From a virus, in IMG/VR virus record IMGVR_UViG_3300036830_000333, positions 1 through 25,813 of that record: 25,813 bases of DNA; one strand, written 5' to 3'. Position numbers and translations under genes: made by a program. Positions 7,026-23,085 of the stretch are shown piece after piece. The stretch's first letter is position 1, and each line of letters opens with the position of its first letter. The notes beneath the pieces were generated by a model. That model ran no database searches and was not told the origin of the DNA. It saw nothing but the letters and a program-made list of their open reading frames with translations.

Positions 7026-7364
7026 TTAAAACCAATGATAGGCTTTACCTACAGCACTTATCAATGTCACAAATGCCGTTCCGTAAATACCCAATATACA
7101 ACCTAAAGTCCAAAATAAATTACCCCTGATATTGCTTTTTAATTCCCTATTATCGCCTTTTAATTCACGTCTTGATTCTTTTACTGCTTCTGTCAGTTCA
7201 TTTCTTGTTTCTTTTAATTGATCACGAATTTCGTTTTTTGTTTGCCTTAATAAATCTTTAATTTCTATTAAATTTTTATCCATATTGATTATGGAATTCT
7301 CTACTATGGTAAGACGTGACTCCACACTATAAAACTCTTTAATATTAATTATATCACTCATCAT
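7026..7364 (-). CDS. Coiled-coil protein with C-terminal membrane anchor
   Basis: 112 residues on the strand opposite to the surrounding late genes. Residues ~12-80 are a charged heptad-rich coiled coil (KNLIEIKDLLRQTKNEIRDQ). Residues ~83-106 are one transmembrane helix (LFWTLGCILGIYGTAFVTLI). The shape resembles XhlA-type phage lysis/exclusion proteins and also small host coiled-coil membrane proteins, so only the architecture is certain. The ribosome site is weak. Its isolated minus-strand position suggests an accessory (moron-like) gene with its own expression. Confidence 0.6.
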   Translation of the reverse strand: MMSDIINIKEFYSVESRLTIVENSIINMDKNLIEIKDLLRQTKNEIRDQLKETRNELTEAVKESRRELKGDNRELKSNIRGNLFWTLGCILGIYGTAFVTLISAVGKAYHWF

Positions 7365-7685: not shown

Positions 7686-8141
7686 ATGAGCACAGACTTA
7701 GTAAACCTTTCTCACAAACAAAAAAATCTTTCTTTAGCAGAGCATTCAATTTTAAACATATTAGCTTATAGAGCTAATGATGACGGAGAATGCTGGCCAT
7801 CTGTAGCCTCTTTAGTTGAAAGCAGTTCAGCAGATCGAAAAACAGTTATTAAAGTTCTCCAATCTTTATCGGATAAAAAATTAATCTTTCAGACTGGAAA
7901 AATGGCTGGAAGAACAAAACGAGTACCTGTGTATAAGTTGAATTTAAATAGTCCCAAAAACGGGACTGTTCAAAAAATAAATAGTACCACTTTTTCCGAT
8001 AACAGTCCCAAAAACGGGACTATTAAACAGTCCCAAAAACGGGACATGGAAAGATCATATCTTAAAGATCAAAGGAAAAGGGATTTTTCAAATTCCGAAG
8101 GCCCCAAAACCCTTAAAGAATTGTATGAAAAATTAATATGA
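7686..8141 (+). CDS. O-like winged-helix protein, likely replication initiator
   Basis: 151 residues. Residues ~10-90 form a winged-helix domain (LSLAEHSILNILAYRANDDG, CWPSVASLVESS, RKTVIKVLQSLSDKKLI), as in phage lambda O-type and DnaD-like replication proteins. After it, the short motif SPKNGT occurs twice and a related SQKRD once; each is encoded by the inverted repeat listed at 7950-8045. In lambda, O binds iterons inside its own gene to start replication. I infer the same here. It ends soon after (KTLKELYEKLI), so the helicase-loader contact region would be short. Alternatively it is a transcription regulator. Confidence 0.65.
   Translation: MSTDLVNLSHKQKNLSLAEHSILNILAYRANDDGECWPSVASLVESSSADRKTVIKVLQSLSDKKLIFQTGKMAGRTKRVPVYKLNLNSPKNGTVQKINSTTFSDNSPKNGTIKQSQKRDMERSYLKDQRKRDFSNSEGPKTLKELYEKLI
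7950..8045. repeat. Three iteron-like 18-bp inverted repeats inside the O-like gene
   Basis: AGTCCCAAAAACGGGACT is present exactly at 7950-7967 and 8004-8021, and with only the last base changed at 8029-8046. Each has perfect 6-bp arms around AAAAAC in the first two copies. Start-to-start spacings are 54 and 25 bp. The pattern resembles the lambda origin iterons (inverted repeats around a central A-run, inside gene O). Candidate replication origin; an AT-rich stretch follows to 8200. Confidence 0.6.
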
Positions 8142-18477: not shown

Positions 18478-18656
18478 TAAATAATCCACCAAAGCAAAGA
18501 AACAATTATCCCGGCAACTGCAAATCCTATCCAAAAACCAAACCAGACAATTTCCCAAAGAGGATTGTCTCTTGTAAACGTTATTCTTAAATCTTCTAAT
18601 TCTTCAGGAGTAAACCAGCTTTTAATACGGTTTTTTATTCTTCTGGGAATTCTCAT
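18477..18656 (-). CDS. Small membrane protein with FTxxEL motif
   Basis: 59 residues. The N-terminus is basic (MRIPRRIKNRIKSWFTPEEL), then comes one strong transmembrane helix (IVWFGFWIGFAVAGIIVSLL) with WWII at the end. The FTPEEL motif matches the soluble paralogues nearby, so one N-terminal segment has been joined to different C-terminal parts. It overlaps the upstream gene by 35 bases. Confidence 0.65.
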   Translation of the reverse strand: MRIPRRIKNRIKSWFTPEELEDLRITFTRDNPLWEIVWFGFWIGFAVAGIIVSLLWWII

Positions 18657-19002
18657 TTTTCTTATCGTCCTTTAGTTCTTCAATATACTCATCCAATTTG
18701 AGCTCTAAAGCTTCAGTTACCTTTTTTGGGATACCAGATTGGTCTAGGTATTTAACGCCTAGCATCATATACATAGTGGACTTAGATGGAATAGGGGCAT
18801 CCAAAACCATTAGTAATAATAAAATCCAATATTTTTTAATAATCTTTAATTCTAAACTAACATCTTCATCTTCAAATCTAAAAATAAAATATTTAAATGC
18901 TGTTACAATTAAAACTAGGATTCCGATACCAAATAAAACAGCAATTCCTTTATCTATATTGTCTATAATATTTACAATATATAAAGCTTGATATAAATTC
19001 AT
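18622..19002 (-). CDS. Phage membrane protein, two transmembrane helices
   Basis: 126 residues. TM helices lie at ~18-41 and ~57-69. The segment PSKSTMYMMLGVKYLDQSG, then KVTEALELKLDEYIEEL and a Lys/Asn-rich tail, resembles a recurring phage membrane protein family ('PSK.T.Y...G...L.......K...AL..KLDEYI'). Function unknown; a holin is possible but unproven. AGGA site upstream. Confidence 0.7.
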   Translation of the reverse strand: MNLYQALYIVNIIDNIDKGIAVLFGIGILVLIVTAFKYFIFRFEDEDVSLELKIIKKYWILLLLMVLDAPIPSKSTMYMMLGVKYLDQSGIPKKVTEALELKLDEYIEELKDDKKNENSQKNKKPY

Positions 19003-19011
19003 TTTAAATTC

Positions 19012-19362
19012 CTAGGATTCATGATTCAAAGTTCGTGGCTGGCGTTCAACAGGTTCAGGATCGAAACCCGCTAACAGAACCTCAAGCTCATTTGCTGTAA
19101 TTTTTTCAATTTTCTTAAGCATTTTTTTAATCTTAAATGTACATTTATCAAGCCTTTTATAATATAGAACAAAGCCGTTTCTGTCCCAAAATAAGCACTT
19201 TATTTTATCTTTATTGCCGTTATAAAAAACATAGATAGAGCCGTCATGTAAATAAGATTTATTTTCTTGATTGATAAAATTGGATAGTCCATCGATTGAC
19301 ATTCTGAAATCAACAGGTTGTGAAGCTATAAATATTTTTTTTCCTTCGTAGGGTATAAGCAT
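19012..19362 (-). CDS. tnpB: IS66 accessory protein TnpB (Orf2)
   Basis: 116 residues, normal length for the family. The conserved core is present: PVDFRMSIDGLSNFI, IYVFYNGNKDKIKCLFWDRN, GFVLYYKRLDKCTFK and ITANELEVLLAGFD. In IS66 elements TnpB accompanies TnpA and the DDE transposase TnpC; its biochemical role is not fully settled. Here it follows tnpA with a one-base overlap (TAATG). TnpC does not follow: the next gene (18622) encodes an unrelated membrane protein. Confidence 0.92.
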   Translation of the reverse strand: MLIPYEGKKIFIASQPVDFRMSIDGLSNFINQENKSYLHDGSIYVFYNGNKDKIKCLFWDRNGFVLYYKRLDKCTFKIKKMLKKIEKITANELEVLLAGFDPEPVERQPRTLNHES

Positions 19363-19889
19363 TATAAATCCTTTAATAATTCAATAATTTTGACTAGTTT
19401 TTCGGTGTGTATGTTATTAGGTAAAGTGACTTTTATATCGTGATTGAATGATATTTCTATAGGAGGCTTATTTATTTCAATAATAGGTTTTATTTCTTGC
19501 ACTTGGTCTACAGGTTTAAGCTCACTTGCAGAGAAAGCAGGTACTTGTATAAAACTCATTTTATTGTTTGATTCTTCTTTTAAGAATTCCATGCATTGAA
19601 TATGATTTTTAACATTGGTGAAATTATATTCACTAATACCTTTAAGCTTAGTAAATTTTTTAATATTTAATCCCGATCTTTCATGTTCTTCAATGTATGG
19701 CAAATATTTTTCGATAAGCCCCGGATTATCTTTCATTTCTAAAATCCAACTATAACGCCTTTTAAATTTAACTATATTTAATTTATTTTGTTTGCAATAA
19801 TCATTTTTAGTTAATGTGCTTTTTTGCCAATCTGTTAATATTTCGTTCCATTTAATAATATCCTTTTTGTCTAAAACATTTCTTGCCAT
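19362..19889 (-). CDS. tnpA: IS66 accessory protein TnpA (Orf1), tandem HTH type
   Basis: 175 residues. Two repeated helix-turn-helix-like segments lie at ~18-50 (WQKSTLTKNDYCKQNKLNIV) and ~66-98 (YIEEHERSGLNIKKFTKLKG). The C-terminus ends THTEKLVKIIELLKDL-like (EKLVKIIELLKDL), a hallmark of IS66 TnpA. Typical TnpA is ~100-130 residues, so this longer form has two HTH units. AGAGA site upstream. In the phage operon it could bind DNA as a regulator. Confidence 0.85.
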   Translation of the reverse strand: MARNVLDKKDIIKWNEILTDWQKSTLTKNDYCKQNKLNIVKFKRRYSWILEMKDNPGLIEKYLPYIEEHERSGLNIKKFTKLKGISEYNFTNVKNHIQCMEFLKEESNNKMSFIQVPAFSASELKPVDQVQEIKPIIEINKPPIEISFNHDIKVTLPNNIHTEKLVKIIELLKDL

Positions 19890-19903: not shown

Positions 19904-20002
19904 CTATTTTTTTAACGTATTAATTAAAACCAAGACTGCAATCGCAACGATTGCGCCATAATATATAGTTTCTATGAGATAGTCAGTACTAATAATCCCC
20001 AT
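19904..20002 (-). CDS. 32-residue membrane peptide
   Basis: It starts MGIISTDYLIETIYYGAIVA and continues as a transmembrane helix to INTLKK. AAAGGAG lies 5 bases before the ATG, a strong ribosome site. It is placed between helicase and tnpA in the same orientation. Function unknown. Confidence 0.6.
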   Translation of the reverse strand: MGIISTDYLIETIYYGAIVAIAVLVLINTLKK

Positions 20003-20018
20003 AATTCTCCTTTAATAA

Positions 20019-21725
20019 TTAATCAAACAGTTTTTTCTTTATCTTAATGTTTTTATTTTCTTCCGTGATTAATAACCGTCTTGGAATCTTTGCTTCCCTT
20101 AACATCTCTTCGACTTTCTGCCTGTTATTTAAATAAATAAAATAGCTTGATGCTTTGTCGCAATGTTTTCTTACAAACTGCCCATAAAACACATGGCGCG
20201 CTTTTTCAGTGCAAGGCGTGTAATGCTCCATAACCATGCGAATATTGCCCTCTTTGTCATGGCATTGGTACCCACAATCAATTCTAAAGCTTTTTTGGGT
20301 GCCCGATATACCAAAGCGCGCCTGATTAACAAAAACTTCAACAGCAATCGGTTTTACGGATTCTAGCGATAGTTTTTTGTTAGGATCGATAATCTCTGTT
20401 TCGCAGAGTCGGCAATGGCGTGCTGAAATATCATTTTTAACCCGACATTCTAAATTAGGGCATTCTTTGAATTCAAAATAATAATCACAACGTGCGTCTT
20501 GAGGCAATCCTACGCAACGTCTTGCATGCTCTGTATTCATTGTCATGCAGGATGGGCATTGGATAACAAAAGGCTTGTCTTTATCAAGTGTTTGTAAAAC
20601 TGCCTTATGTAATATTGGATTATCCCAATCACGATGCCTTTCTATATTGCCAGCAAAGTCCATTACTAAAGCTTCTTTTTTGTTTGTATTGGGAGACAAT
20701 CGGAGCGCTCGCCCCATAGTTTGAACAAGCAAAACAAGACTTTCCGTTGGACGAAGATACGCAATGGTATCGTAGGCGGGCACATCAACACCAACCGATA
20801 TAATCGCAATATTAACCAGATACTTAATTTTACCAACACGCGCTTCATCTAATATCCTTGTACGTAAGTCCTGATGTGTATCACCTAAAATTAATGCAGA
20901 TTCCTCTTTAGGCAAATGCGATAAAATCTCATAAGCATGTTTTTTGGTGGTGGCAAATAAAAACACGCCGAACCGATTTTGCGACTGCATAATATGCACC
21001 GCCTGTTTACAAATAAGCTCTGTTAAGCGCGCGCTTTCATCAATGACATGCGCTAATTCTTTTTGATCAAACAATCCATTTTGCTTTATTTTGACCCTTG
21101 AAAAATCAATCACCAATTCTTTATCTATCTCAAAGGTAGGTTCAATTAGGTACTTATCCCGAATTAAACTCTCCGTGGTAATGTTCCCCACCTGCGATTT
21201 GAACAGACACTTTGGCCCGACAATTTCGGCCCCCTTGAATCTAAAATTAGTCCCCGTAGCTCCAAGGAGTCGCATGTCTTTATAGAGCGTCTTATAGTGC
21301 CTAAGTAGGCGCATAAAAGTAGAACGATGATTGTTGTAATTAATAGCATGTGCTTCATCCACAACAATAAGATTGAATGGTATTTCGCCGATGGATTCAT
21401 TTTTATTTATTCCGTTAAGTATCGATTGCGGCGTTCCAAAAACTACTGGAGCAGTGGCATCTTTTTCGGAAAGGGCTGCGCAGTAAATCGAGGAATTGCC
21501 TCCTTGCTCATTAAATGTAACACAATTATTTCGTACTAATTCCGCATTGTTAACAAGGCAGAGTGCGCGTTTACCAGCCTGTTGCATAGATAGTAATACG
21601 CTAGCCAGCATTAAGGACTTACCAGCTCCTACAGAGGCCATCAATAATACTGGCTCATCATCTTTTCTTAATGCAGCCCAGCATTCGTTAACGGCCTGTT
21701 GTTGGTAAGGGCGAAGGCTTTTCAT
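20019..21725 (-). CDS. SF2 helicase with C-terminal zinc ribbons
   Basis: 568 residues. It starts MKSLRPYQQQAVNECW (Q-motif type). Motif I SVGAGKS (31-37), II DEAH (123-126), III GATGT (155-159) and VI QTMGRALRLS (335-344) are all present. Eight Cys at 390-441 (CPSC...CV...C; CPNLEC...CRLC) suggest two zinc ribbons. The C-terminal ~100 residues (HYTPCTEKARHVFYGQF) are a separate domain. Likely the replicative or recombination helicase, ending the replication module. It overlaps the HNH-AP2 gene by ATGA. Confidence 0.9.
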   Translation of the reverse strand: MKSLRPYQQQAVNECWAALRKDDEPVLLMASVGAGKSLMLASVLLSMQQAGKRALCLVNNAELVRNNCVTFNEQGGNSSIYCAALSEKDATAPVVFGTPQSILNGINKNESIGEIPFNLIVVDEAHAINYNNHRSTFMRLLRHYKTLYKDMRLLGATGTNFRFKGAEIVGPKCLFKSQVGNITTESLIRDKYLIEPTFEIDKELVIDFSRVKIKQNGLFDQKELAHVIDESARLTELICKQAVHIMQSQNRFGVFLFATTKKHAYEILSHLPKEESALILGDTHQDLRTRILDEARVGKIKYLVNIAIISVGVDVPAYDTIAYLRPTESLVLLVQTMGRALRLSPNTNKKEALVMDFAGNIERHRDWDNPILHKAVLQTLDKDKPFVIQCPSCMTMNTEHARRCVGLPQDARCDYYFEFKECPNLECRVKNDISARHCRLCETEIIDPNKKLSLESVKPIAVEVFVNQARFGISGTQKSFRIDCGYQCHDKEGNIRMVMEHYTPCTEKARHVFYGQFVRKHCDKASSYFIYLNNRQKVEEMLREAKIPRRLLITEENKNIKIKKKLFD

Positions 21726-22435
21726 TGGATGGACTCATCACGTTTTATTCTGGCCTCTTCGTAAGCCTTCTGCGCTTCCTCCGGCGTACCATAGCTTCCT
21801 AAATTAACTTTTTTTCCTTTAATCCGGATTCTCGCCCTAAATCTACCCCTATTTTCATCAACACCAACAGGCAAAATCCTTTGTTTTTGTGATGTGCTTA
21901 AACCCTTCTCGCTTAATCCTAATTCATTACGTGTTTTCTTTTCAATTTCTTGCGGAGTTAAGGAATAGTCAGAGGCATATTTCTTTAAAACTTCTATTGC
22001 CTGCAATGCATCGCTCTCCTTATTATGCGAGCCTAAGTACATTAAATAGCCTTCAACAATAACATTTACCCTGTACTTAGTTTTGTTACCTTGTAAAAAT
22101 GTAGTGGGTTTTATATTTTCATGTCGCAGTCTGGTTTTAACGATATTTTCAATATTAGTATTCATTTTATTGCCATCTAAATAATGAATAAACCTAGGGA
22201 ATTCTTTGTGATGATATAAATATACAAGATGGGAAATCCGTTTATTGTACTCTTTTTTAGCTATGCTAAATGACCCAACAAAATAACAATCTCCATTCGG
22301 ATGAATTTTTACACTCCCCATCTTTCTGCCAACCTCACTGCCATGTATTCCCTTGATTCTGATAAAATCACCGTCTTTATATTCGTAATTCTCATGCAAA
22401 TAATCATAAATTAAATATACTTCATCTTGGTTCAT
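21722..22435 (-). CDS. HNH-like protein with two AP2 domains
   Basis: 237 residues from the ATG at 22435, which overlaps the upstream stop (ATGA). An HNH-like region at ~69-98 has HLVYLYHHKEFPRF, then IHYLDGNKMNTNIENIV. Two AP2-type DNA-binding domains follow, ~118-155 (KYRVNVIVEGYLMYLGSHNK) and ~188-230 (GRFRARIRIKGKKVNLGSYG). Architecture is of phage homing endonucleases. The usual 'DHxxGN' is here 'HYLDGN', so the catalytic His may be replaced or displaced. Inserted between nuclease and helicase. Confidence 0.8.
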   Translation of the reverse strand: MNQDEVYLIYDYLHENYEYKDGDFIRIKGIHGSEVGRKMGSVKIHPNGDCYFVGSFSIAKKEYNKRISHLVYLYHHKEFPRFIHYLDGNKMNTNIENIVKTRLRHENIKPTTFLQGNKTKYRVNVIVEGYLMYLGSHNKESDALQAIEVLKKYASDYSLTPQEIEKKTRNELGLSEKGLSTSQKQRILPVGVDENRGRFRARIRIKGKKVNLGSYGTPEEAQKAYEEARIKRDESIQ

Positions 22436-23085
22436 TGATGGCACACCTTATTAAATTTGCACATTTTGCACTTAAAATAGAGCGGACTCCCATTAATTCT
22501 AGGAGGCGCCACTACAGCCCGAGACACCATCAAAGCCTTATCCTCAAGCCCCTTATAAAAATCGGAATCAAATACAACCAGTTCATCGGATAATTCGCTA
22601 TTATCCTTATTTAATACCAGAATATAGGTGTTATGAATGCCACTCATTCCCATATAGGCTTGGACTTGCGCATAATATTGGGGATTCCATAGAGCGAGAC
22701 CTTTATTCACAAATACCTTAAAGCTTGCATCTTTAGCAGTTTTAATCTCAATAATGGCCTGTAGTGTTGAATCTTTAATCCAAATAGAATCTACATGCCC
22801 TTTAAATACTTCTACGTTTTTTGACTGCAAATCATGCCAGCGTCTAACCGTCTCAACGCCTGCCCCATCCAGCCAGTCATGGACTAACCCTTCTAGCCTC
22901 TTGCCTATCTCCCAGGTTCGTCGTGTTTTAGTTGGCACGTCTTCTGCAATAGTGCCTACAAATTCATACCAGATTTGACGCAGGCAATCAGAGCCTATGG
23001 TTGAGGCTCCAATGTAGTCCCGAAGCTCACGACTATCATAAGCCTGGGATTTATCTATTAGCTTGGTTAATATATCTCTTTTCAT
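22432..23085 (-). CDS. PD-(D/E)XK exonuclease with Fe-S cysteines (Cas4/RecB-like)
   Basis: 217 residues. Catalytic set: H69, D99 (GHVDSIW), E113-I-K115 (IIEIKTA) and a QVQAY motif (140-144). C34 (SDCLRQIWY) and C206, C209, C215 (CKMCKFNKVC) form the four-Cys pattern that holds a 4Fe-4S cluster in Cas4 and AddB-type nucleases. It lies next to an SSB-like protein and a Sak4-like ATPase, so it is the likely 5'-3' recombination exonuclease of this phage. Confidence 0.88.
   Translation of the reverse strand: MKRDILTKLIDKSQAYDSRELRDYIGASTIGSDCLRQIWYEFVGTIAEDVPTKTRRTWEIGKRLEGLVHDWLDGAGVETVRRWHDLQSKNVEVFKGHVDSIWIKDSTLQAIIEIKTAKDASFKVFVNKGLALWNPQYYAQVQAYMGMSGIHNTYILVLNKDNSELSDELVVFDSDFYKGLEDKALMVSRAVVAPPRINGSPLYFKCKMCKFNKVCHQ

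Follow-up and report, generated by a model that had tools for sequence, protein, structure and literature searches.

An IS66-type tnpA-tnpB gene pair without tnpC, apparently retained under selection in a group of phages

The three-gene insertion sequences (IS) of the IS66 family encode TnpA, TnpB and the transposase TnpC from consecutive genes in the order tnpA-tnpB-tnpC. In work on IS679 all three proteins were reportedly needed for IS66-type transposition, and, as far as we know, little is understood of what TnpA and TnpB do, since both have been examined only in their capacity as helpers of TnpC. Members of the ISBst12 group retain tnpC and lack both tnpA and tnpB. Here we describe the opposite split of the gene set, a TnpC-free tnpA-tnpB pair found in a stretch of viral DNA of 25,813 nucleotides (IMG/VR record IMGVR_UViG_3300036830_000333, positions 1 to 25,813; the whole stretch is hereafter the window) and in related phages. 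We found no description of such a pair in phages in the open-access literature, most subscription papers lying outside the search.

The pair resembles a three-gene IS66 element of 2470 bp, from genome G143 of the Legionellales, in having homologous TnpA and TnpB proteins encoded in the same order by genes whose ends overlap or abut; it differs in the absence of TnpC and of terminal repeats, and in a longer TnpA with an added helix-turn-helix (HTH) unit. Pseudomonas phage Marin and Streptococcus phage phiStag1 likewise carry an IS66 TnpB gene within the phage genome, but in both it is closely followed by an IS66 transposase gene, their TnpBs are only 28-32% identical to that studied here, and Marin TnpB falls outside the phage clade described below. 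In the Marin record the IS66 TnpB is annotated as an endonuclease; with the TnpB nuclease of IS200/IS605 the window protein shares only the name, being 116 residues long and matching TnpB_IS66 models only. On balance we favor the reading that the pair was captured once by phages of Legionella-like bacteria and has been kept as a selected accessory cassette, acting as a complex without transposition.

The tnpA-tnpB pair and the search for TnpC

The window TnpB belongs to the IS66 TnpB family by its matches to PF05717 (E 1.9e-28, 98.8 bits against a cut-off of 26.6) and NF033819 (88.9 bits, cut-off 50). TnpA is assigned to the IS66 TnpA family by NF047593 (43.8 bits, cut-off 28, split over two stretches), while a Pfam search with the same protein gave no meaningful match. 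Both genes are intact and share one base at the junction TAATG, in agreement with the preliminary description of this DNA, which had also reported neither a tnpC-like frame nor terminal repeats. Searches of the window with PF03050 and NF033517 (for NF033517 even with an E limit of 1) detected no TnpC, and tblastn with Legionellales TnpC returned chance matches alone (best E 1.4). For the ends, the multicopy IS66 element of G143 served as a positive control: delimited to the length given above, it ends in GTAAGCGCTTAATTAACC and shows an 8-base target repeat at its junctions. This 18-base end matches the window at 13/18 at best; shuffled windows reach 12-14/18. In flanks of related phage loci (scanned with the end of this one element over 0.4-1.5 kb ahead of the tnpB start and 1.5 kb beyond the gene) no paired ends were found, and the best matches were within the shuffled range barring two loci, L014 with 14/18 on one side only (shuffled maximum 13) and L026, where 14/18 is a tie. 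Hence none of the hallmarks of an IS66 insertion sequence, namely TnpC downstream of tnpB, IS66-type terminal inverted repeats and an 8-bp target duplication, was found at this locus.

Successive TnpB searches recovered 26, 30 and 54 viral loci, the last set including contigs outside the clade, and one further member (G193) was added through its coat gene. The resulting clade set comprises 33 IMG/VR viral records, the window among them, plus one contig in a Desulfosporosinus metagenome-assembled genome (L028). Three record pairs have identical TnpBs (L009/L011, L013/L015 and L019/L020), and the number of independent loci is therefore somewhat below 33. The TnpB open reading frame (ORF) is undisrupted in all 34 copies, that of L024 merely ending early near residue 105, and the frameshifts expected of plain decay are accordingly missing. 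Gene order and coupling are also kept: a TnpA ORF lies immediately upstream of tnpB in 33 copies (a TnpA tail is seen at the locus edge in L028), with the one-base overlap in 24 of 33.

TnpC was detected in none of the 33 viral records, each searched with at least one of the two models. Outside the clade, 24 viral contigs carry TnpB; TnpC is present in 20 of these, and the remaining four end less than 400 bases from tnpB (0/33 against 20/20 assessable contigs, Fisher p 5e-15); it is also present in 13 of 13 tested host-order genomes with a related TnpB. The frequency of TnpC in these other viral contigs rules out a collection bias against transposase-bearing contigs, and the two models over 33 records, together with tblastn on the window, rule out a hidden or diverged TnpC.

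Origin, selection and remodelling of the two proteins

In a TnpB tree, which uses few columns and in which the Legionellales were the order sampled most, the phage proteins form a single clade (support 100/98) adjoining TnpBs of that order. Outside phages, the highest identity spanning most of the protein, 49-52%, is also found there, and an even draw of 369 gammaproteobacteria yielded at most 46%, one short fragment aside. Furthermore, two Legionellales-order genomes, G158 and G160, contain prophages that belong to this phage family, whose coats share 82-88% identity with those of phages; the phage-type pair is absent from both prophages. This suggests that close kin of these phages live in Legionella-like bacteria and that, by relatedness, the window phage may have a host of this kind. 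A single capture of the pair from an IS66 element by phages is our best reading of its origin.

Comparisons between TnpB genes gave a median pS (proportion of synonymous differences) of 0.81, at which synonymous sites are saturated, and a median pN (the nonsynonymous counterpart) of 0.20. In unsaturated pairs the ratio of nonsynonymous to synonymous rates (dN/dS), suggested earlier as a test for purifying selection, is mostly 0.1-0.2 and at most 0.36 among those listed, well below 1. Retention of the pair under selection in phages is well supported. Across 11 long genomes the median identity is 70% for TnpB, 25% for the portal and 31% for the coat; such high TnpB identity alongside widely differing structural genes suggests that TnpB has been passed between phages as well as constrained. 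When aligned with six bacterial TnpBs, the window TnpB keeps every invariant position, and both TnpB and TnpA are basic (isoelectric point 9.0). When a predicted TnpB structure was compared using VIA, nearly all top rows were YTH/EVE-like, though weakly so, with mostly 90-107 residues aligned at a root-mean-square deviation of 3.6-5.2 and Z scores of 3.5-5.0, under the tool's noise range. Foldseek at E 0.001 returned no match for TnpB in PDB or BFVD, nor for TnpA in PDB, and a sequence search with a profile of seven TnpBs retrieved no PUA-like chain; we treat the predicted EVE/YTH (PUA-like) resemblance as a lead and no more.

TnpA has been remodelled. Host-order bacterial TnpAs have about 108-126 residues and one HTH unit, whereas full-length phage copies span 156-373 residues. 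The AlphaFold2 (AF2) model of the window protein consists of two helical units followed by a disordered linker and then a hairpin with a helix, and the two units are homologous by profile comparison (E 2.3e-9), bearing out the two HTH units originally noted. Unit 2 matches bacterial TnpA in hhalign (E 1.8e-7), and residues 66-172 align to it as well (E 1.7e-10). Among phage TnpAs the median identity is 22-24% in the heads and 52.9% in the tail, and among the close pairs examined the heads exceed the tail about 2-15-fold in nonsynonymous change. The TnpAs of L003, L008 and L334 are longer still; for example, the ORF at 337-1485 of L334 encodes a TnpA-like protein of 382 residues that has the conserved tail and, apparently, a doubled set of HTH heads.

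Genomic context of an accessory cassette

The pair is an accessory cassette whose genome position varies. TnpB occurs in only 3 of 34 long contigs with a coat gene at least 82% identical to that of phage G004, and in 8 of 13 contigs with TerL-A at least 79% identical and at least 3 kb of upstream sequence, which rules out a core gene of the lineage. In the window and in G004 the pair directly follows a helicase gene; nG175 has no tnpA-tnpB there, and the gene found on the far side of the pair in G004 comes immediately after the same helicase. Elsewhere it lies beside regulators (G193) or after another small gene (G023), and in most other phages it precedes the terminase gene, in many cases with tRNAs, an RNA ligase or a metallophosphoesterase coming next. 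The same pre-terminase stretch holds, in the G158 prophage (contig C26, 75507-78266; L250/L307), a 919-residue ORF resembling a sensor histidine kinase, and in L342 and L377 genes for RtcB-like RNA ligases next to clusters of tRNAs, a putative RNA-repair cargo. ARAGORN predicts a tRNA whose anticodon has four bases (gggt), possibly a frameshift suppressor, soon after tnpB in L019 (2721-2796) and L020 (5580-5655), the TnpBs of which are identical.

Other roles were considered for the pair. TnpA as the terminase small subunit is not favored, a small HTH-like protein (f17) being likelier and the pair being missing in many relatives; nor is a role in integration, given that the integrated G158 prophage lacks a phage-type pair. 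A family of about 66 residues (f40) is usually encoded just upstream of tnpA in many relatives (for example L014, 4262-4459); its sole Pfam match, to a late promoter activator, is below threshold (E 0.065). Its absence from the window and its occurrence without tnpA-tnpB in L327 and L355 rule it out as an obligate third gene.

Features of the tnpA-tnpB locus in the window
Feature	Position	Strand	Basis	Remark
ORF of 126 residues following tnpB	18622..19002	-	phrog_3878, E 3.1e-9	function-unknown family; context, outside module
tnpB, IS66 accessory protein TnpB, 116 residues	19012..19362	-	PF05717, NF033819	
tnpA, IS66 accessory protein TnpA, 175 residues	19362..19889	-	NF047593	extra HTH unit
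TnpA conserved tail, residues 142-175	19365..19466	-	AF2 hairpin and helix, identity	putative docking part
TnpA HTH unit 2, residues 56-109	19563..19724	-	AF2 helices	bacterial HTH counterpart
TnpA HTH unit 1, residues 8-49	19743..19868	-	AF2 helices	lacking in compared bacterial TnpAs
Membrane-peptide ORF of 32 codons just upstream of tnpA	19904..20002	-	ribosome site, read from sequence	
Phage helicase gene preceding the pair	20019..21725	-	phrog_16, E 8.5e-70	context, outside module

The peptide ORF upstream of tnpA, at most a putative member of the tnpA-tnpB module, is preceded by the ribosome site AAAGGAG, in line with the earlier report of a good ribosome site there. Beyond the helicase, further upstream of the pair, lie Sak4-like, SSB-like, exonuclease and AP2/HNH genes, and because of these neighbors the pair probably belongs to an early transcription unit. 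To this extent the phage early operon proposed in the preliminary description fits, but fixed membership of the pair in that operon does not hold in related phages. The AP2 and HNH gene (21722-22444, minus strand), within the replication gene block, possibly encodes a homing endonuclease. Three copies of AGTCCCAAAAACGGGAC at 7947-8052, inside a gene (7686-8141, plus strand) with an HTH_36/DnaD-like N-terminus, may represent origin iterons within the gene of a replication initiator. At 7026-7364 (minus strand) an opposite-strand gene within the structural region encodes a coiled-coil-like protein with a membrane stretch, the family of which occurs in many related phages with or without tnpA-tnpB. 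The window has no end repeats, and relatives of the terminase, portal, scaffold or coat genes of the longer phages were not found in it; it is therefore probably incomplete. Its DNA had no match in the phage collection, and repeat and Rfam scans of it revealed no site tied to the pair.

Possible roles of the pair

Under the single-capture reading favored here, the phages would have taken tnpA and tnpB from an IS66 element to the exclusion of tnpC and the terminal repeats. TnpA and TnpB are assumed to act as a complex, in which the HTH units of TnpA would read a DNA site differing between phages, the conserved TnpA tail would hold TnpB, and the near-invariant, basic TnpB would act on a conserved partner, either a host protein or a nucleic acid. 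Phage-specific targets are proposed because the TnpA heads evolve fast, and a constant partner because TnpB is constant. The outcome might be the steering of phage gene expression or host takeover, with neither TnpC nor transposition involved. As the pair is selected without the jumping enzyme and one helper has been rebuilt with an extra DNA-binding unit, it appears to be used for something other than jumping. The new use originally suggested for the pair is also supported by the outcome of searches for a tnpC fragment, terminal repeats and frameshifts, none of which appeared. Several points weigh against this proposal: no DNA site for TnpA was found, no tnpB lies behind the long TnpA of L334, and the retained invariant residues of TnpB are also expected if TnpB still met a host TnpC.

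The last point belongs to the main rival, according to which the pair cooperates with TnpC from the IS66 elements of the host or opposes it, either borrowing it to move DNA or jamming IS66 insertion into the phage. We regard this as possible, though clearly less probable than a function free of TnpC. Related host-order genomes contain many IS66 copies with TnpC, the phage TnpB is closest to host-order TnpBs and retains all family-invariant residues, and the pair sits at differing positions in differing phages; against this, the window has no IS66 ends above chance and relatives no paired ends, both HTH units of TnpA are strongly diverged, which is unexpected if IS66 ends must be read, and the two related prophages with host flanks have no phage-type pair. 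Both action with host TnpC and regulation, the alternatives raised at the outset, survive these data, regulation more easily.

An unlikely alternative is a counter-defence cassette, in which TnpA-TnpB would neutralize a host defence and the TnpA heads would diversify in an arms race. The pair is accessory, with one variable and one conserved component, and in many relatives it opens the pre-terminase cargo stretch of tRNA clusters, RNA ligase or metallophosphoesterase, which in some relatives without the pair is filled by RtcB-like genes; but this association is by position only, and the window phage and several others have the pair elsewhere, without that cargo. A decaying relic of an IS66 insertion, kept by chance, would account for the missing tnpC and ends, as in a truncated element. 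We consider it highly improbable and reject it, since tnpB is intact in 34 copies with saturated synonymous change and low dN/dS, and membership in one clade is not expected of repeated independent truncations.

A more specific and rather speculative version, to which we give little weight, is that TnpA-TnpB constitutes a reprogrammable two-part targeting module, in which changed and multiplied HTH heads would choose the DNA address and the constant TnpB, perhaps a PUA-like base reader, would act there. If this were true, the ancestral job of TnpA-TnpB in IS66 would be target or end selection for TnpC. More generally, the existence in dozens of phages of a natural, selected pair free of TnpC indicates that TnpA-TnpB has an activity of its own, and the phage pair offers a clean system for finding it. 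It also adds a case in which phages have domesticated the accessory proteins of a mobile element rather than its transposase.
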